From contig NZ_BBIO01000013.1 of the NCBI RefSeq assembly GCF_000739695.1, forward strand, positions 1 to 64,000: a stretch of 64,000 bases of DNA, written 5' to 3'. A program made the translations under genes and the position numbers. The notes beneath the pieces are model-generated. The model had not been told where the DNA came from. It did no database searches and saw only the letters and a program-made list of their open reading frames with translations. Source of the stretch: Tepidicaulis marinus. GTDB lineage: Bacteria > Pseudomonadota > Alphaproteobacteria > Parvibaculales > Parvibaculaceae. Shown in pieces: positions 1,833-44,922 of this stretch (positions within the stretch are counted from its first letter, which is position 1; every line of letters begins with the position of its first letter).

Positions 1833-2104
1833 AAGGGCGGACCGGCGCTGAAAGGCGGTGGGTGGGGCGCGCGGCAGCACGTGTCCCCCAGGGCTTGCCG
1901 CCAAGGCTACCCCAAATGGCTGACCGGAGGAAATGGCGGCGCCGGGACGCAGCATTCGAAGCCTTTAGAAGGGCGCGCAAGGTAAGGGGAGAGTTTTCCT
2001 ATTGCAGCTTTCCGGTCTAGGGTAGGGATCTACATTTATGCGGGCGGGCAACCGGCCGGGGCGGCTGCGGGCCAGGCAGCATCGGCTATGGCCAAGCTTT
2101 GGGG

Positions 2105-4207
2105 ATGAGCGTGCGGTTGAAAAGCAGTGTGATCCGTTTTTCGTTGGGCATTTTTCTGCTGCCGTTTCTGCTTGCCGGTGCGGGAGCCGTGCCAGAGGCG
2201 GCGCCATGGCAGGAGGCTTCTGGTGAGCAGCCGGGCCTTAGAGCCGGTATCTATCAAAACCCGCCGAAAATATTTCTCGATGAAGAAGGCGCGCCGGCCG
2301 GACTTTTCCCGGAGGTGCTTGCTGCACTGAGTAAAAAAGCCGGATGGGCAGTGACCTATCACCCCTGCGCCTGGGCGGACTGTCTGGTCATGCTCGAAGC
2401 GGGCGAGATTGACCTTATGCCGGATGTGGCGCCGACACCCGCGCGTGAGGCACTTTTCAAATTCAATCAAGTGCCAGTGCTGCGCAGCTGGTCTTACGTT
2501 TATTCGCGGCCCGGCACGGTCGTGCAAAATTTCGAGGACATGGCCGGCGGACGTGTGGCCGTGCTCAAGGACAGTGTGCAGCATGGCAAGCTTGCCGAAA
2601 TGCGCAAGGAGCAGGGACTTTCCTTTGAGATCGTACCGACTGCCCGGCACAATGAGACGCTCGAAGCGGTGGCGGCAGGGCGGGCAGATTTCGGCATCGT
2701 CAATCAATCTTTGGGTGAAGCGCTGCAGAACGGGTTCGATCTGACGCGCTCGCAATTCGTTTTTCAGCCGACCGCGCTTTATTTCGCCTTTGCGCCCGGC
2801 ACGCCGGATGGGCTGATTGCCGAAGTGGACCGGCATATGGCGGCGATGAAAACCGATCCGCAATCGGCTTATTTCACGGCCTTGGAAAAATGGATGTCGC
2901 CCGCGCGGGAGCCTGCGCTGCCTGCCTGGGTGATCTGGGCGAGCGGCGCGGCGTCGCTCTTACTGCTGGCCGGTGCCGGGATCGTTGTGCTCTTGCGCCG
3001 CCGCGTCGCGCAGGTGACGCAGGCTGTGCGCTTGAGTGAAGAGAAGCTCATCCGTGCCCAAATCATTGCCCGCGTTGGTGACTTCACCTGGGATCTGCGC
3101 ACGAATGGCGTGACCTGGTCTGAAGGGCTGCTGCATCTGCTCGGCTATGAGAGCGAAACCGAAATCGATTTGGACAAGGTGCTGGAGGAAATCCATCACC
3201 CCGATGATACCGAGTGGGTCTTGAACTGGATCCTTGAAGGGGCAGCGACTGGCGCGCGCACGCTCGGGCCTGAGACCTACCGCCTGCGCAGTAAGGACGG
3301 CGCAGTCATGTTCGTCGAGGCGAATATCGTTATCGAGTATGAGGATGGCCGGGCAGTGAAAGTCTTCGGCACCTGCCAGGATATTACGCGGCAGGTGAAA
3401 TCGGAACGGGCGATCCTGCGTGCCAAGCAAAACGCGGAAGAGGCGAGCCGCGCCAAATCACAGTTCCTTGCGACCATGAGCCATGAATTGCGCACGCCGC
3501 TCAATGCCATTATCGGTTTTGCCGAAGTTATGCAGATGACGGCGGGTGGCTCGCTCAACGCCTCGCAAATGGAGCGGATCAGTTACATCCTTACTGCCGG
3601 GGAGCAGCTCCTCAACCTCGTGAACGATATTCTCGATCTTTCGAGCATTGAGTCCGGCCATCTGCGGATTTCGGTTGAAAAAGTGGATGTGGGCGAGACG
3701 GTGGGCGAATGCATCGCGCAGGTCTCTCAAATGGCCGAGCGCGGGAAAGTGACCATCGAGGACCGCTTACCAGGAGGTATGCCGGTGCTGCTTGAAACGG
3801 ACGGGCAGCGCTTCAAACAGATCATCATCAATCTTCTCTCCAATGCCGTGAAATATAATGTGGATGGCGGAAGGGTGCGCATTTATGGGGAGCGCACGAG
3901 CGATGGGTTCTTCCGGCTTTTTGTTTCCGACACGGGCATCGGTATTCCCAAGGCCAAGCAGAACCAGGTGTTCGAGACGTTCACCCGCTTGCATCCGGAC
4001 GCCATGGTGGCCGGCGGCGGGGCGGGGATCGGGCTCAGCCTGGCGCGGCTTCTGGCGCAGAAAATGGGCGGGCGGCTTGGGTTCGAAAGTGAGGAAGGGC
4101 AAGGCAGCACGTTCTGGTGCGACTTGCCGCTGGAGTTCGATCCGGATGCCCTTTCCCGGGAGGTGGAAGTTGACCGGCCGGTGAGAGACGTCAATGGAAA
4201 CGCCTGA
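2105..4207 (+). CDS. Sensor histidine kinase: periplasmic solute-binding domain, PAS, HisKA, HATPase
   Basis: A 700-residue membrane sensor kinase. It has a signal-anchor at about 10-30, a periplasmic family-3 solute-binding-like domain at about 45-265 and one membrane helix at about 275-298 (WVIWASGAASLLLLAGAGIV). A PAS domain follows at about 325-430, then HisKA with the phospho-acceptor box SHELRTPLNAIIGFAE and a HATPase domain with NLLSNAVKYN, DTGIGIP and GAGIGLSLARL. No receiver domain is fused and no obvious partner regulator sits beside it. A TTG six bases upstream (2099) is a possible alternative start. mobA begins inside its last codons, so the two genes are translationally coupled. 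The small-molecule ligand is unknown; nitrate or molybdate would fit the neighbourhood but is speculation. Confidence 0.9.
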   Translation: MSVRLKSSVIRFSLGIFLLPFLLAGAGAVPEAAPWQEASGEQPGLRAGIYQNPPKIFLDEEGAPAGLFPEVLAALSKKAGWAVTYHPCAWADCLVMLEAGEIDLMPDVAPTPAREALFKFNQVPVLRSWSYVYSRPGTVVQNFEDMAGGRVAVLKDSVQHGKLAEMRKEQGLSFEIVPTARHNETLEAVAAGRADFGIVNQSLGEALQNGFDLTRSQFVFQPTALYFAFAPGTPDGLIAEVDRHMAAMKTDPQSAYFTALEKWMSPAREPALPAWVIWASGAASLLLLAGAGIVVLLRRRVAQVTQAVRLSEEKLIRAQIIARVGDFTWDLRTNGVTWSEGLLHLLGYESETEIDLDKVLEEIHHPDDTEWVLNWILEGAATGARTLGPETYRLRSKDGAVMFVEANIVIEYEDGRAVKVFGTCQDITRQVKSERAILRAKQNAEEASRAKSQFLATMSHELRTPLNAIIGFAEVMQMTAGGSLNASQMERISYILTAGEQLLNLVNDILDLSSIESGHLRISVEKVDVGETVGECIAQVSQMAERGKVTIEDRLPGGMPVLLETDGQRFKQIIINLLSNAVKYNVDGGRVRIYGERTSDGFFRLFVSDTGIGIPKAKQNQVFETFTRLHPDAMVAGGGAGIGLSLARLLAQKMGGRLGFESEEGQGSTFWCDLPLEFDPDALSREVEVDRPVRDVNGNA

Positions 4208-38220: not shown

Positions 38221-39354
38221 TTATTCGGCAGCCGTCATGCTGTCGAGGGACATGTAGGCGCCATTGTTGCCGTTCAGCTTGCGCAGGAACTTGATGCCTT
38301 CCTCGGCAATGTCGTCGCCGACCATGCGGTCGCCTTCGCCGTAAAGTTCCTTCATGTCGATGAAGGCGGCGTAGTTGCCGGAGGTGCGCTCGGTGATGAT
38401 GCCGGCTTTCAGCAGCGTCTTGATGAGCACGCGGAAGATGTTGGTCGATTCCTGCATGTCTTCGCGGATGTTGCTGTCCGTCATGGCTTCCATGAAGGCG
38501 CTCTGCACCCACTGCCAATCAAGGCCGATGCGCTCATACATCCATTTTTTCTGCTCGGGGCTGCCCAGATTGTAGAGCAGCACCTGGAAGACTTCCCAGG
38601 CCCAGTCTTCGATCTGGTTGCGCTCGCTTTCCGACAGTTTCGGAATGGTGCGGTCCGCCCAGATTTTCCCGAACTTATGGTGGAAGGCTTCGTCCGTCAT
38701 GGTCAGCTGCATGACTTTGACCATCAGCGGGTCGCGGGAGAATTTGTAGAAGGTCGCAAAGGCGCCCATGGCCAGGCCTTCGACGAGCATCTGCATGCCC
38801 ACGAGTTTCTTCCAGACGAGCGGGGAGAGCACGAGCTCGGTCAGAAGATCGCCGAGCGCCGGGCCGACCTGCACGGGCTTGCCCCAGCGGGCCTTGATGT
38901 AATTCGTGAAGCCGGTGACGTGGCGGGCTTCTTCGCGGGTCTGGTTCGCAGCATATTCCTGCGCGCCCGGGTCTTTCAGGATGTGGCAGAGGCTCGCCGA
39001 CAGCGCCAGCGCGCCCTGCTCGCCGTGCAGGATCGAGGAGAGCGACCAATGCACGTTCATGTTCACGAGCTGGATTTTCTGCTTTTCATCGAGCTTGTCG
39101 GCGACCGCCGTTTTCAGCTCCATGTTCTGGCTCGGCTCGATGAGATATTCGTTCTCCATGTCGAAGGGCAGGGAGAAGTCGATATATTTCGTATCCAGCG
39201 GGTCCCAGAAATGGTCGTGCGTGGCGGAGATGATCTTGTCGAACGCGGTCGAGCGGTTGCCGTAGCGTTCGACATCCATCATCGCCGGAAAGTCTCTGGG
39301 GTCGACGGCTTCATAAGCCGTATCGACAGTGATGTTGCCGTCTTTCGATGTCAT
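38221..39354 (-). CDS. Ferritin-like diiron protein (R2/oxygenase-like)
   Basis: A 377-residue protein with a complete diiron ligand set: E112 (HGEQG), E142 and H145 (TREEARH), E192 (LVEGLA), E222 and H225 (TDEAFHH). This two-times E...ExxH pattern is that of ferritin-like diiron carboxylate proteins such as R2-like oxidases and AurF-like N-oxygenases. There is no radical-generating subunit or ferredoxin beside it. The length and single-gene organisation suggest an oxygenase or oxidase; given the setting a lipid or amine substrate is possible but unproven. A good promoter and an inverted repeat lie upstream at 39449-39514. Confidence 0.78.
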   Translation of the reverse strand: MTSKDGNITVDTAYEAVDPRDFPAMMDVERYGNRSTAFDKIISATHDHFWDPLDTKYIDFSLPFDMENEYLIEPSQNMELKTAVADKLDEKQKIQLVNMNVHWSLSSILHGEQGALALSASLCHILKDPGAQEYAANQTREEARHVTGFTNYIKARWGKPVQVGPALGDLLTELVLSPLVWKKLVGMQMLVEGLAMGAFATFYKFSRDPLMVKVMQLTMTDEAFHHKFGKIWADRTIPKLSESERNQIEDWAWEVFQVLLYNLGSPEQKKWMYERIGLDWQWVQSAFMEAMTDSNIREDMQESTNIFRVLIKTLLKAGIITERTSGNYAAFIDMKELYGEGDRMVGDDIAEEGIKFLRKLNGNNGAYMSLDSMTAAE

Positions 39355-39529: not shown

Positions 39530-40036
39530 TCAGTGCAGCATCCGCGAGCGGCCGGCGGGCAGGGGCTGCTTGTCTGCGGAAAGAGGGCTTGGATCGGCGA
39601 TTTTCAGCGCCGCTTCTTCCAGCCAGGCGCGCCGCTCGGCGCTTGCTAACGCCTCGCTGATGGCCTTGTAAAGCGCCTCCGGCACCAAGGGCTTCGACAG
39701 CAAAATGCTGACGCCCATTTGCGCGGCGCGCGCTTCATGGGCGTCCCCTGAAAGGGCGGAGAGCATGATGACCGGCACATTGGGGTCCGGGCTTTCCGGG
39801 TGGCTGCGCACCGTGTCTACCAGTTCATAGCCGTCGATGGGGGCCATGGCGGCATCGGTGATGATGATGTCCGGGCAATAGCGGAAGAATGTGGTCAGCG
39901 CTTCACTGCCATTATTGGCGATGAAGACGCGGCCCGCGCCGAGCGCGGCCAGCAATGAGGCAAGCAGGCGGCGGACCGTCTCGCTGTCATCGGCAATCAG
40001 CACGGAAAGCTTGTCGATGGGATTTGGCGAACTCAT
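39530..40036 (-). CDS. CheY-like single-domain response regulator
   Basis: A 168-residue receiver protein. D16 and D17 form the acidic pocket, D61 in ITDAAMAPIDGYEL is the likely phospho-acceptor, and the conserved Lys is in LLSKPL. After about residue 130 comes a 35-residue tail with no DNA-binding domain. It lies 15 bases after the Hpt gene and shares the DAAM-P-G pattern with the receiver at 40635. This suggests a local phosphorelay rather than direct gene control. No kinase is encoded in the cluster. Confidence 0.87.
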   Translation of the reverse strand: MSSPNPIDKLSVLIADDSETVRRLLASLLAALGAGRVFIANNGSEALTTFFRYCPDIIITDAAMAPIDGYELVDTVRSHPESPDPNVPVIMLSALSGDAHEARAAQMGVSILLSKPLVPEALYKAISEALASAERRAWLEEAALKIADPSPLSADKQPLPAGRSRMLH

Positions 40037-40051
40037 TGAGGGCCGTCCGTT

Positions 40052-40618
40052 TCAGCCGCGTGCGGGGTCGCAAGCGGGGCGGCAATGTTCCAAGGTGCGT
40101 CCGACCAGCCTTTCCAGTCCGGCCAATGTGGCCTTGGCAACTTCCTCGCTCGGTTCCTGCGCATCCATCGCGGCGGCGAACATGGCATCGACATGCAGGC
40201 GCACCACCGCGCCGTCGGCGGCATCCAGATGCGGCAAGGCTTCCAGATATTGGCACAGCGCGTTGGAGATGCGCCCTGTCACGGGCCGCGAAAACGTGCC
40301 GGCGAGCCCGCGAATGTCATGGGCCAGCGCATAGATGGCGTGAATAGCTTCCTGTTTGCCCGCCTGCCATTCGTCATGGGAGAGCAGCATTTGCCGGATT
40401 TCGGTCTTCAGCGACTTTTCGTAACTGTCGGCCATTTTTTCGATGGCCCGTTCCATGCGTTTGAGCACGCGCGGATCGAGGCGCATGGGCAGAACCGCGC
40501 CCGGACCCAGCTTGCGGGTCACGATAGAGGATGGCTGAACGATTTCGACGCCTTGCGCGCCGCTGCTTACCTGCATTCCGGCAGGGGGCTGACCGGGTGA
40601 GTGTTGAGAGTGCGGCAT
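40052..40618 (-). CDS. Hpt-domain phosphotransfer-like protein
   Basis: A 188-residue mostly helical protein. The likely phospho-histidine is H100 in ALAHDIRGLAGTF, matching the HxxKGxxxxxG pattern of Hpt modules except that Arg replaces Lys. The first 40 residues are flexible and Pro/Gln-rich. The start is ATG 40618; longer in-frame upstream sequence overlaps the neighbouring receiver gene and lacks conservation. It sits between two receiver genes with 15-16-base gaps, so it should pass phosphate between them or to an external kinase. Confidence 0.78.
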   Translation of the reverse strand: MPHSQHSPGQPPAGMQVSSGAQGVEIVQPSSIVTRKLGPGAVLPMRLDPRVLKRMERAIEKMADSYEKSLKTEIRQMLLSHDEWQAGKQEAIHAIYALAHDIRGLAGTFSRPVTGRISNALCQYLEALPHLDAADGAVVRLHVDAMFAAAMDAQEPSEEVAKATLAGLERLVGRTLEHCRPACDPARG

Positions 40619-40634
40619 GGCGGCTGAATTCCTC

Positions 40635-41168
40635 TCAAATGTCCAGAAGGGCGGCGCGCGAACGGCTTCGGCGGCGCTCGGGCCCGTCATATTTGTTGGT
40701 GGCGCGCCGGCGCCGGTCGGGCCCGAAAAATCCGTCCGCGCGCACGAAGGGGCGCGGATGCGCGGCAACTTCCACAAGGCGCGAGTAGAGGCCGACCGGG
40801 GTGACCGGCTTGGCGAGATATTCGGTAACGCCCAGATCGCGGGCAAGCTCCACGGCCTCGCGTTCGCAGTGCCCGGTGATCATGACGACGGGAACCGTTG
40901 CAAGGCGCGCGTCCTCCGCCGCCCGGATGCGGCGCAGAAGGTCGAAGCCGTTGGTCGGCTCCATGGCCGCATCGGTCAAAACGATGTCGGGCACATAATC
41001 TTGAAATTTCGCCCAGCCATCATCTCCGTTTTCCGCTTCGATGATGGTGCCCACTTCCAGCGCATGAAGAAGCTCGCCCAGCAGCTTGCGCATATAGGCG
41101 CTGTCCTCGACCACGAGGATGCTGAGCTTGGAGAACAGCTTGATGGCTTCGGATGTCGGTGCGAACAC
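40635..41168 (-). CDS. Response regulator with C-terminal GPDRRR/GPERRR tail
   Basis: A 177-residue receiver protein. The acidic pocket is E21/D22, the phospho-acceptor is D66 in LTDAAMEPTNGF, and the Lys is in YLAKPVTP. The last 40 residues have no folded output domain but two basic repeats, FFGPDRRRR and YDGPERRR, a tail motif I have seen in other alphaproteobacterial receiver proteins. Translation starts with GTG at 41168, nine bases after GGAGGAGG. A direct repeat (GTTGCAATA twice, 15 bases apart, 41187-41210) lies just upstream. Confidence 0.85.
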   Translation of the reverse strand: MFAPTSEAIKLFSKLSILVVEDSAYMRKLLGELLHALEVGTIIEAENGDDGWAKFQDYVPDIVLTDAAMEPTNGFDLLRRIRAAEDARLATVPVVMITGHCEREAVELARDLGVTEYLAKPVTPVGLYSRLVEVAAHPRPFVRADGFFGPDRRRRATNKYDGPERRRSRSRAALLDI

Positions 41169-41284
41169 GGCGCGGTGCCTCCTCCGGTTGCAATAGGCGC
41201 TGTTGCAATACGGGAAGGCTAGAGGGGCTTGGTTAAAAATTTCGCAATGGAGATAAGGAATTCTTTTCCTTAAGGCGAATTTAT

Positions 41285-41300
41285 CTTAACGCCCGTTAAG
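41285..41300. repeat. Perfect inverted repeat between the flagellin-like and receiver genes
   Basis: CTTAACG-CC-CGTTAAG has 7-base arms and a 2-base centre and lies immediately after the flagellin-like stop. A second inverted repeat, AAGGAA-TTCTT-TTCCTT, is at 41255-41271. Neither has a T-run, so operator or RNA structure is as likely as termination. Confidence 0.45.
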
Positions 41301-41302
41301 GC

Positions 41303-41947
41303 TTAGTACATTTTCAGACGCGCAAGGCGCTCGGAAAGCACCGCTGCGCTATCGGCAAAAAGATCGGCGGTGTGCAGCGCGATGTTTTTGGCAACGGCGA
41401 GCTCGGCAAGGCTGCGGTCGATGGCGCTGAGGCTTGCAAAAGCTTCGCCCGGGGCGGAGAGATCGAGGCCGCTCGGCCCGCTGGTCAGATTGGCGACATG
41501 CAGCACGACCCGGGACTGGCCTGCCGCATCGAGGGTGATTTCGCAGGTCTTGCGGCTGCCGTCGATGAGATTGGCCTCGCCCGCGGCGATATTCATGACA
41601 TAGGCATCGATGCGCTCCAGAAGCGCGCTATAGCGCTCGGCAATGGCGGCGCGTTTGGCGGTGTTGACCGTGTCGCGGGCGTTTTCGCAAAGCTCGGTGC
41701 CTTCGGCCAGAAGTTCGGTCAAATGGTCGATGGCCAGAATGGCCGCTTCGAGCATGTGCAGCGCGCCGCTCAGCCGTTCCGCGGTTTCCGCCATCTGGGA
41801 TATGCTGCCGCCGGACGGGCGCAGGGCCCGGGAAATCGCCCCTTGAAGAGCATTGCCGCCGGCGTCCGCACCTGCCGGCGCGGCGGCGGGCAGGGCAGGG
41901 GAAAGACGGTCTTCCCGCGGCGAACGAAAACGCGACAGCAACCCCAT
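41303..41947 (-). CDS. Short flagellin-core-like protein lacking the terminal assembly helices
   Basis: A 214-residue protein. Residues about 60-200 follow the flagellin D1 pattern: a long helix with GALHMLEAAILAIDHLTELL, then YSALLERIDAYVMNIAAGE, ANLIDGSRKT, a short beta segment and a second helix (AFASLSAIDRSLAELAVAKN). The usual flagellin N-terminal helix is replaced by a Pro/Ala-rich stretch and the C-terminal assembly helix is absent, so filament formation is unlikely. The start is ATG 41947 with GGAGG five bases upstream; a GTG at 41959 overlaps that site. It heads the receiver-Hpt-receiver cluster. The flagellin relationship is by pattern recognition only. Confidence 0.65.
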   Translation of the reverse strand: MGLLSRFRSPREDRLSPALPAAAPAGADAGGNALQGAISRALRPSGGSISQMAETAERLSGALHMLEAAILAIDHLTELLAEGTELCENARDTVNTAKRAAIAERYSALLERIDAYVMNIAAGEANLIDGSRKTCEITLDAAGQSRVVLHVANLTSGPSGLDLSAPGEAFASLSAIDRSLAELAVAKNIALHTADLFADSAAVLSERLARLKMY

Positions 41948-42032: not shown

Positions 42033-42893
42033 TTAGGGGCGGGCACTGACGATCCAGCAGGCGCCCTTAAGAACCAAGCCTTTGGGCGTTTCGAATTTCG
42101 CCAGTTCCTCGCGCACGGAGCCGATCACTTTTTCCGTGACCGCCTCGCTTTCGCTTTTCAAGGCGCGGGCCACCGGGCCGATTTCCAGAACGAAATTGAT
42201 GGATTGATCCAGCATATCCGCGCCGCCTTCGGCCATGATCAGATCGAGGTCGAGCGGATCGAGATGGACTTTATCAAAGCCGGCTTCTTCAAGCAGGCCG
42301 CGCACATGACCTTCATCGGCAAAGGCAAAGGGGCCGGGCGTGCCGGGGGCGGGCGGCTCGGGCGGGGTGATGTGGGGCAGGGCCGCAACGAGCGGGCGGA
42401 AGACCCACTCGTTTTCTTTTGCCTCGCGCCAGCACACGAAAGAGAGCCTGCCGCCGGGTTTCATGGCTTTGCGGATATTGGCAAAGGCGGCAGCCGGTTC
42501 ATCGAAAAACATGACGCCGAAGCGGGAGAAGACGAGATCGAAACTTTCCGGGGTGAAATCATAGGAGGCCGCGTCCGCTTTTATGAACTCGGGCGCAAGA
42601 CCTTTGGCCGCGGCCCGCTCGCGCGCCCGTTCCAGCATGGGGGCGGAAATATCGACGCCCGTGACTTTTCCCGCGGGGCCTGCGGCTTCAGCCAGCGCCA
42701 ATGTCGTCTCGCCGCAGCCGCAGCCGATATCCAATATGGCCTCGCCTTTCGCAGGCTTCGCCGCATCCAGCACCTTGGCCGTGATGGGCGCAAGGAAGCG
42801 GTCCACCCGTTCCTGATTGCGGGTCCAGGAGGCACCGGCCTCACCGTTCCAATAGTCGATCTGATCCTGATTGAGGGCGGCTGGTTGGCTCAT
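42033..42893 (-). CDS. Class I SAM-dependent methyltransferase
   Basis: A 286-residue methyltransferase. Motif I is ILDIGCGCGETTLALAEAAG, motif II VTGVDISAPMLERARERA, and the post-motif SFDLVFSRFGVMFFDEP is typical of the UbiE/BioC-like group. Its N-terminal NQDQIDYWNGEAGASWTRNQ is common in a set of methyltransferases of unknown substrate. A GGAGG site precedes the ATG, and the gene is divergent from a Nudix gene. Confidence 0.85.
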   Translation of the reverse strand: MSQPAALNQDQIDYWNGEAGASWTRNQERVDRFLAPITAKVLDAAKPAKGEAILDIGCGCGETTLALAEAAGPAGKVTGVDISAPMLERARERAAAKGLAPEFIKADAASYDFTPESFDLVFSRFGVMFFDEPAAAFANIRKAMKPGGRLSFVCWREAKENEWVFRPLVAALPHITPPEPPAPGTPGPFAFADEGHVRGLLEEAGFDKVHLDPLDLDLIMAEGGADMLDQSINFVLEIGPVARALKSESEAVTEKVIGSVREELAKFETPKGLVLKGACWIVSARP

Positions 42894-42962: not shown

Positions 42963-43478
42963 ATGCAAGATGTGCAGCAAGACCCTGTTCACCAAGACCT
43001 GGGAAGGCCCGATATTCTCCGGCGGTCCCTCCATGCCTTGATGCGGTTTTACTGGCGCCTTGCCCGGCCGCTCACCATGGGGGTTCGGGCGGCGGTCTTC
43101 GATGAGCAGGGCGCGGTCCTGCTCGTGCGTCATTCTTATATGCGCGGCTGGTATTTGCCGGGCGGCGGGGTGGAGCGGGGTGAGACGACATTGCAGTCGG
43201 TTACGCGCGAGCTTGACGAGGAAGCGGGCATTTTGCTGCGCGCGCTGCCGCGGCTTTTCGGGCTTTATGCCAATTTCCGCGAGTTCAAATCCGACCATGT
43301 GGCGCTTTATGTGGTCTCTCCCGGCACATATGAGCGGGAAGAGCGGCGCAGCCTTGAGATTGCCGAATATGGGTTTTTCCCGCTCGACGCCTTGCCGGAA
43401 GGCACGAGCGGGGCCACCCGCGCGCGCCTCGAGGAAATCAGCAAGGGGCTCACGCCCCCTGCCATGTGGGCGCCCTGA
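42963..43478 (+). CDS. Nudix hydrolase
   Basis: A 171-residue nucleoside-diphosphate-linked hydrolase. The Nudix box is complete: GGGVERGETTLQSVTRELDE followed by EAGI. Nearby AAVFDEQGAVLLVRHSYMRG and WYLPGG are typical of the family. Substrate cannot be read from sequence. It is convergent with the amidase gene, 16 bases away. Confidence 0.88.
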   Translation: MQDVQQDPVHQDLGRPDILRRSLHALMRFYWRLARPLTMGVRAAVFDEQGAVLLVRHSYMRGWYLPGGGVERGETTLQSVTRELDEEAGILLRALPRLFGLYANFREFKSDHVALYVVSPGTYEREERRSLEIAEYGFFPLDALPEGTSGATRARLEEISKGLTPPAMWAP

Positions 43479-43494: not shown

Positions 43495-44922
43495 CTAGAT
43501 ATCCGGGCGGCGGTCTTTCCAGGGCTGAGCTTTTTCAAGCTGGGCGGCGAGACGGAAGAGCGTGCCCTCATCGCCGAATCTGCCTGTGAACATCGAGCCG
43601 ATCGGCATGCCGTCCTGCGACCAGAAAAGCGGCACGGACATGGAAGGCTGCCCCGTCATGTTGAAAAGGCCGGTAAAGGGCATGTAGTGGGTGATGGCCT
43701 GCATATAGGCGCCGACATCTTCGTTCATCATGTCGAGCACACCGAGCGGGATGGAAGGCGCGCCCATGGTGGGGCAAAGATAAACGTCATAGCCGCTCAT
43801 GAAGCGGGCAAGATGGCGGCTCATCTGGTGGATGAACAATGTCGCGGCGGCATAATCCACAGCCGTGCGGCTTTTCGCGCCTTCCGCGATGAGCCAGGTG
43901 ATGAGTTCCACATCGCCCGGCTTGATCTCGCGTCCCCGTGCCTCGCCGCGCTGTTTGAGCGCCAAGGCGACATTCGCGCCGATAAGCGTTGCCTGATGGG
44001 TGGACATCTCCTGCGGGTCGAGGCGGGGGGCGGCTTCTTCCACGATATGGCCAAGGGATTCGCACAGGATTGCCGTGCGTTTGATCGCTTCGGCGACGTC
44101 TGCTTCCACCTCGCTGCCATCGGCGCGTTTCGTGTTGAAGGCGATTTTCAGAACGCCGGGCTCGCGCTCCATTTCGGCAAGGTAAGGCCTCTCCGGCGCG
44201 GGCGCGGCATAAGGATCGCCGGGCGCTTCGCCGCCCGTCGCATCGAGCATGGCCGCGCTGTCGCGCACGCTGTGCGAGACGATATGGGAGATGGACATGC
44301 CGCCCCATCCCTCGCCCCTGTCAGGGCCCATGGGGGTGCGTGCGCGGGTCGGCTTCATGCCGAAAAGGCCGCAGGCGGCGGCGGGAATACGGATCGAGCC
44401 GCCGCCATCGCTCGCATTGGCAAGGGGCAAAATGCCGGCGGCCACCGCTGCCGCTGCGCCGCCCGATGAGCCGCCGGGCGAACGCTCCAGGTTCCAGGGA
44501 TTGCGGGTGGGGCCATAGGCTCTGGGTTCCGTCGTGCCGGTCAGCCCGAGCTCGGGCGAGTTGGTTTTGCCGAAGGGCACGAGACCGGCGGCAAGATAGC
44601 GCTCGGTCAGTGTGGAATTGTGATCGGCGATATAGCCTTTCCAGGCATCGGAGCCGAATGTCGTTTCCGTTCCTTCCCAAAGAAGGTGCAGATCTTTCAG
44701 AAGAAACGGCACGCCTTCGAAGGGGCCTTCGGGCACGCCTTTTTCGACGAGGCGGCGGGCCTCTTCGTAATTCTCGATGACGATGGCGTTCAGTTTTGGG
44801 TTGAGCGCTTCGGCGCGCGCCAGCGCTTCATCCAGCAATTCGCCGGGCGTTACTTCCTTGTCTTTGACAAGCTGGGCAAGACCGAGCCCGTCATAATCGT
44901 CATAGTCGGTAAAGTTGCCCAT
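43495..44922 (-). CDS. Amidase signature family hydrolase
   Basis: A 475-residue amidase. The signature region [20 protein letters not shown] contains the cis-Ser, and the nucleophilic Ser is in [20 protein letters not shown]. The general-base Lys is in [12 protein letters not shown]. Such enzymes hydrolyse amides or nitrile-derived amides, or belong to the GatA-like group; the absence of gatB/gatC here argues for a catabolic amidase. An AAAGGAG precedes the ATG. Confidence 0.88.

Follow-up and report, generated by a model that had tools for sequence, protein, structure and literature searches.

The window, by which we mean the whole 64,000-nucleotide stretch of Tepidicaulis marinus DNA analyzed here, encodes a protein whose kinship with flagellin is genuine by sequence comparison, and from which both D0 ends are missing. 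We term this protein FCL (flagellin-core-like, after the flagellin D1 core). It appears to represent an undescribed flagellin-derived family. FCL is the novel part of a locus that also holds two receivers (REC) and an Hpt protein; REC-Hpt pairs are already common in Alphaproteobacteria. We favor, with somewhat better than even confidence, the explanation that two modules stand side by side here, one being a flagellin core exapted to serve as a helical binding protein, the other a REC-Hpt-REC relay that has no kinase of its own and draws on unlinked ones. To our knowledge, flagellins have been described almost exclusively as subunits of the filament; a family missing both filament-forming ends, yet intact in several alphaproteobacterial families, including genomes where flagellin and export genes are gone, would illustrate plainly how a structural protein can be taken over for a different task.

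The ORF calls place FCL, receiver 1, Hpt and receiver 2 on the minus strand of the window genome in the order first described (Table 1). FCL lies 134 bp upstream of receiver 1, and the gaps that follow measure 16 bp (receiver 1 to Hpt) and 15 bp (Hpt to receiver 2). The surroundings of the cluster are indeed free of kinases, as had been noted: the nearest HATPase_c match (window 3800-4135, inside ORF 2099-4207) is ~35-36 kb off. That ORF encodes a membrane histidine kinase whose domains are PAS, HATPase and, apparently, a periplasmic solute-binding one. FlhA is encoded on other contigs in the window genome (G000), and 33-75 kb from the locus in relatives that carry both on one contig. G000 is close to 'Rhodobiaceae bacterium UBA4490', whose locus (L031) is the nearest relative. 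Below, f1 denotes the window's family, the sole family of its order in the genome set used.

Table 1. Features of the FCL locus and of a related region on another contig of G000 (window coordinates unless a locus is named).
Feature	Coordinates	Strand	Remarks
Amidase	43495..44922	-	Flanking; conserved FCL neighbor
Nudix hydrolase	42963..43478	+	Flanking; conserved FCL neighbor
SAM methyltransferase	42033..42893	-	Flanking; between FCL and receiver 1 in genus g5
FCL	41303..41947	-	214 aa
FCL-receiver 1 gap	41169..41302	-	134 bp; putative promoter/operator of relay genes
Receiver 1	40635..41168	-	177 aa; GTG start; D66 (phospho-acceptor), T98, K120; GPDRRR...GPERRR tail
Hpt	40052..40618	-	188 aa; H100 in AHDIRGLAGTF; CheA P1-like
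Receiver 2	39530..40036	-	168 aa; D61 (phospho-acceptor), S93, K115; without GPDRRR tail
Diiron protein	38221..39354	-	AurF-like (sub-threshold); near-constant FCL neighbor
Hybrid kinase (~79.2-81.4 kb on C36)/second Hpt region, G000:C36	L089 5215-7437 and 7465-7878		

The flagellin core of FCL

Residues ~50-212 of FCL match flagellin D1, with a long N helix, a beta hairpin (NLIDG...EITLD) and a C helix, and are preceded by a tail (residues 1-48) that is not D0 and bears an RALR motif. Searching the PDB with a profile of 30 FCL proteins returned ten sequences up to E 10, all of them flagellins, with FljN and FljK as the best matches and 5.2e-6 as the best E-value among PDB chains. Similarly, hhalign matched FCL to alphaproteobacterial flagellins with 99.3% probability over 166 columns, covering the D1 helices and hairpin along with the first part of the C-terminal helix. 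In Pfam, the FCL of one f91 genome (G404) scores 34.1 bits against Flagellin_N, above the cut-off of 26.6. Weak matches to this model were found in 14 of the 30 members, and matches to an NCBIfam flagellin model in 17; flagellin models are the only Pfam or NCBIfam models matched by many FCL proteins. The window FCL taken alone stays below the cut-off, with no significant family in Pfam or NCBIfam, so the relation is visible in the family profile and not in the single sequence. The original prediction had called the 214-residue product flagellin-like and suggested a profile search against flagellins; that search, the hhalign match and the above-threshold FCL all support flagellin-core homology for the 41303-41947 product.

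The FCL proteins aligned with 21 flagellins have no D0 segment at either the N- or the C-terminus, bearing out the claim that the helices needed for filament assembly are missing. Most FCL proteins have the RALR motif, or one close to it, ahead of the core; the pattern is found in 1 of the 21 flagellins, at another place. In a tree of 23 FCL and 21 flagellin sequences, the FCL proteins make up one side of a 99/99-supported branch, which is compatible with a single origin, the root of the tree not being fixed. The AF2 model of FCL, of low confidence (pLDDT 57), has a helix at 49-124, two strands and a helix at 164-213, which is the D1 order; the AF2 alignments comprised two sequences, those of the window and L031. 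Foldseek searches with this low-confidence model gave no match at E <= 0.001. From its sequence, FCL is likely cytoplasmic.

The relay genes and their association with FCL

Both window receivers match Pfam Response_reg (4.7e-21 and 1.9e-20), are single-domain and carry no output domain. The acidic pair, the phospho-acceptor Asp, the Thr/Ser and the Lys are present in both of them and in every other aligned member apart from receiver 2 of G004. The DAAM-P-G pattern described for the two receivers is found in both, and receiver 1 carries the GPDRRR and GPERRR tail ascribed to it. The window Hpt alone is sub-threshold in Pfam (0.021); its family profile matches CheA P1 domains at 4e-5 to 5e-4, and the best match (1.6e-8) is a synthetic construct, BRIC1, bearing the same HSIKGGAGTFG motif. 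H100, R103 and G104 of the HxxRG motif are invariant in 23 of 23 members. Based on these comparisons, Hpt resembles CheA P1 and H100 is its predicted phosphotransfer site; the AF2 model of Hpt is helical at very low confidence (pLDDT 44).

The Hpt family is widespread, occurring in 154 of the 385 genomes sampled across Alphaproteobacteria, and elsewhere in the class a GPDRRR-tailed receiver often lies directly upstream of it, forming REC-Hpt pairs without FCL. For example, at loci L097 and L102 of other Alphaproteobacteria the pair recurs between gapA-like and yebC/ruvC-like genes, neighbors that were named by eye from sequence. Our literature search returned no paper on the GPDRRR motif or on this receiver type; with REC-Hpt pairs so frequent in Alphaproteobacteria, a handle on the GPDRRR-tailed type would be useful.

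The gene order of the window recurs in ~20 species-level genomes whose receivers and Hpt proteins are 30-50% identical, a level of divergence at which conserved order excludes chance as the source of the cluster. The f1 order is FCL, (methyltransferase), receiver, Hpt, receiver, diiron protein. Genus g3 has Hpt followed by one receiver, and in genus g5 a further hydrolase gene precedes the diiron gene, the methyltransferase being placed as given in Table 1. Nearly all f1 FCL loci that were compared with their surroundings have Hpt and at least one receiver adjoining FCL; at one of them (L036), no receiver was detected beside FCL. A second family, f121 (G156), has the order FCL, receiver, Hpt, diiron. 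The linkage of the genes is thus conserved, with the order kept across f1 and FCL-REC-Hpt present in f121 as well. Neither outcome set in advance as refuting the original prediction, a lack of flagellin similarity or of conserved linkage, came about. In f4 and f116, FCL adjoins the same amidase, Nudix or diiron genes and no receiver or Hpt is found there; in f91 it stands away from the relay and adjoins the amidase in one case. Comparing gene neighbors across families suggests that the block of amidase, Nudix, FCL and diiron genes is the older arrangement, which relay genes would have joined later in some lineages.

Conservation of neighborhood and orientation in both f1 and f121 lends itself to an alternative that we regard as unlikely, namely one four-part system, with FCL as the output or scaffold of the relay, binding a phosphorylated receiver through its D1 helices. 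The same alternative could draw on one genome of genus g2 (G002, 100% complete), from which FCL, Hpt and flagellin are all absent together, and on genus g4, where FCL and the adjacent receiver 2 decay jointly in G004. There, receiver 2 (L049 10089-10589) carries D-to-N at the phospho-acceptor, D-to-G at an acidic position and K-to-T at the Lys, while FCL (L049 8241-8888) is without the NLIDG hairpin motif. Against it, the two parts occur separately. No Hpt of the window type was found in the FCL-bearing genomes G039, G174, G272, G151, G254, G342 and G404, which include three f4 and three f116 genomes, and the Hpt family occurs without FCL in most of the class.

Within g5, the best-sampled genus, rates of evolution set FCL apart from the relay as well. 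Across 11 g5 genomes, with the diiron, Nudix and methyltransferase proteins as controls, partial correlations beyond the controls were 0.52 for receiver 1 and Hpt, 0.42 for the two receivers and 0.37 for Hpt and receiver 2 (p <= 0.009). The values for FCL against the receivers or Hpt were 0.04-0.17 (p 0.21-0.43), a sample of 11 being one in which a weak link could escape. A weak FCL covariation of 0.21-0.25 (p ~0.08-0.09) in g5 vanished once the controls included the methyltransferase. When two genera were taken together, FCL showed high partial correlations with Hpt and receiver 2 (0.83-0.85), as a four-part system would have it, but these were carried by one genus split.

The gap between FCL and receiver 1, which also counts against a single unit, is conserved: positions 41169-41302 are 91% identical to L031, compared with 74% for the region upstream of FCL, and contain the palindrome CTTAACGGGCGTTAAG. 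This higher conservation suggests regulatory sequence, and the gap is probably a separate promoter/operator of the relay genes. A simple pattern search, run without a positive control, found no family-wide CtrA or sigma-54 pattern upstream of FCL or receiver 1. In g5, the methyltransferase gene even comes between FCL and receiver 1. Overall, a single four-part system is not supported, nor is the suggestion that FCL is a partner or target of the phosphorelay, given FCL without Hpt in f4 and f116, REC-Hpt pairs widespread without FCL, no excess covariation and a gap resembling a separate promoter. Inside f1 a functional link between FCL and the relay is possible, because of the joint absence in G002 and the joint decay in G004. 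A two-stage history, in which the flagellin core first became independent of the flagellum, being kept as such in several alphaproteobacterial lineages, and was then recruited as a REC-Hpt effector or scaffold in f1 and f121, which would make it a flagellin-derived signaling protein, strikes us as doubtful.

FCL in genomes without detectable flagella

FCL is present in 36 of the 40 genomes of the window's order, and the matches in two genomes of that order (G008 and G034) turned out to be flagellins. It also occurs in families f4, f91, f116 and f121, all outside this order in the set used, and its ORF is intact in every case in which the complete gene was read. Distant matches to the FCL profile in G376, G341, G182, G416, G066 and G172 were excluded as true flagellins by their full-length ends; several of these adjoin FlbT-like genes. 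No FCL was found in the viral contigs and plasmids searched, so there it is neither phage- nor plasmid-borne.

Several genomes keep FCL with no sign of a flagellum. Flagellin and FlhB were not found in FCL-bearing G039 (97% complete), G174 (91%), G254 (87%) and G342 (83%), nor was FlhA in the first three; draft MAGs, G039 and G174 among them, are the basis on which flagella are taken to be absent. G404 (77% complete) is without FlhA and FlhB, and FCL itself accounts for its sole Flagellin_N match. As FCL is kept where flagellin and export genes are not detectable, its role appears to be independent of flagella, as far as MAG completeness allows. 'Flagellin-like' matches can turn up in genomes seemingly without flagella, and call for caution. 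In the single-contig genome G003 (G003:C1), FlhA and FlhB are present, a full flagellin was not found, and FCL, Hpt and a receiver are kept; most of its genus mates carry several flagellins.

These genomes bear on a second alternative, in which FCL mimics flagellin, occupying FlaF/FlbT and so tuning flagellin production or export. The retained D1 core would suit such a role, as would the true flagellins and two FlbT genes of G000, and HP1076 of Helicobacter pylori does compete with flagellin for the chaperone FliS (PMC7248283). We nevertheless judge mimicry to be quite improbable, as FCL persists in genomes without flagellin and FlhB, and in G003 without a full flagellin found, and no flagellar-type promoter motif was found upstream of it. 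That FCL is a functionless, decaying flagellin relic is very improbable indeed: identity among families is low and the G004 copy has lost its hairpin motif, but a functionless gene would not stay intact at such divergence in most of an order and four other families, with conserved positions that include E82, Y106, L127, T155 and G160 as well as the family-specific tail motif.

Outside the window, G000 itself has two flagellar gene sets, with two FlhA, two FlhB and two FlbT (contigs C28, C39 and C42). Its flagellins, encoded on C39 and C42, fall into two types.

Two proposed neighboring modules and known systems

Under the two-module explanation that we prefer, FCL, missing both D0 ends, could neither polymerize nor carry the usual flagellin termini, and would have been kept as a soluble, rod-shaped helical protein bearing an N-terminal tail motif of its own. 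By analogy with HP1076 and FliS, its D1 surface would most likely bind another helical-bundle protein. FCL shares with the D1 domain of flagellins of the FliC/FljK family the same helical core and beta hairpin, by profile and profile-profile comparison; in contrast to them, it has neither terminal D0 segment, its N-terminal tail differs, its gene does not adjoin flagellar genes and it persists where flagellum genes are missing. HP1076 is likewise a D1-like protein outside the filament: it is soluble and non-polymerizing, its deletion leaves flagella intact, and it has no shown filament role (PMC7248283). This precedent indicates that D1-like proteins are possible away from the filament and that one can bind a helical-bundle protein (PMC7248283). 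HP1076 was reported as unique to epsilonproteobacteria, RpoN-dependent, membrane-associated and FliS-binding (PMC7248283). The solved HP1076 chains were not among the PDB matches of the FCL profile at E up to 10, and no sequence relation is detectable. A further candidate for comparison is FlaC of Campylobacter, a non-structural flagellin that is reported to be secreted through the flagellum (PMC5466977); FCL, for its part, is missing the flagellin ends.

The REC-Hpt-REC genes are a version of the REC-Hpt pair common in Alphaproteobacteria. Phosphoryl groups would most likely come from unlinked hybrid kinases, pass to H100 of Hpt and be shared by both receivers. Lacking output domains, the receivers may form a hub or sink and would not regulate by binding DNA. 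Addition of the relay genes to the old amidase-Nudix-FCL-diiron block would then have made the two modules neighbors. Stand-alone pairs resemble the window in their GPDRRR-tailed receiver, same Hpt family and adjacent genes, whereas the window has two receivers around Hpt and FCL alongside; unlike a hybrid phosphorelay with its own kinase, the window cluster has no histidine kinase gene. A precedent for the Hpt is HmrX of the Caulobacter HmrX/HmrB/HmrA relay, a stand-alone CheA-P1-like Hpt whose hybrid kinase is encoded elsewhere, in a relay that affects the motile-sessile choice (PMC11481889). As described there, HmrX indicates that a stand-alone CheA-P1-like Hpt can act in an alphaproteobacterial relay, and the text consulted mentions no receiver pair beside hmrX (PMC11481889). 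No paper on the four-gene combination was found in the literature searched.

G000 holds 43 HATPase_c matches. A HATPase_c match at G000:C34:85936-86250, beyond the window, is broken by one TGA and may mark a broken histidine kinase. On contig G000:C36 (L089), a second Hpt of the same family is convergent with a PAS-HisKA-HATPase-REC hybrid kinase.
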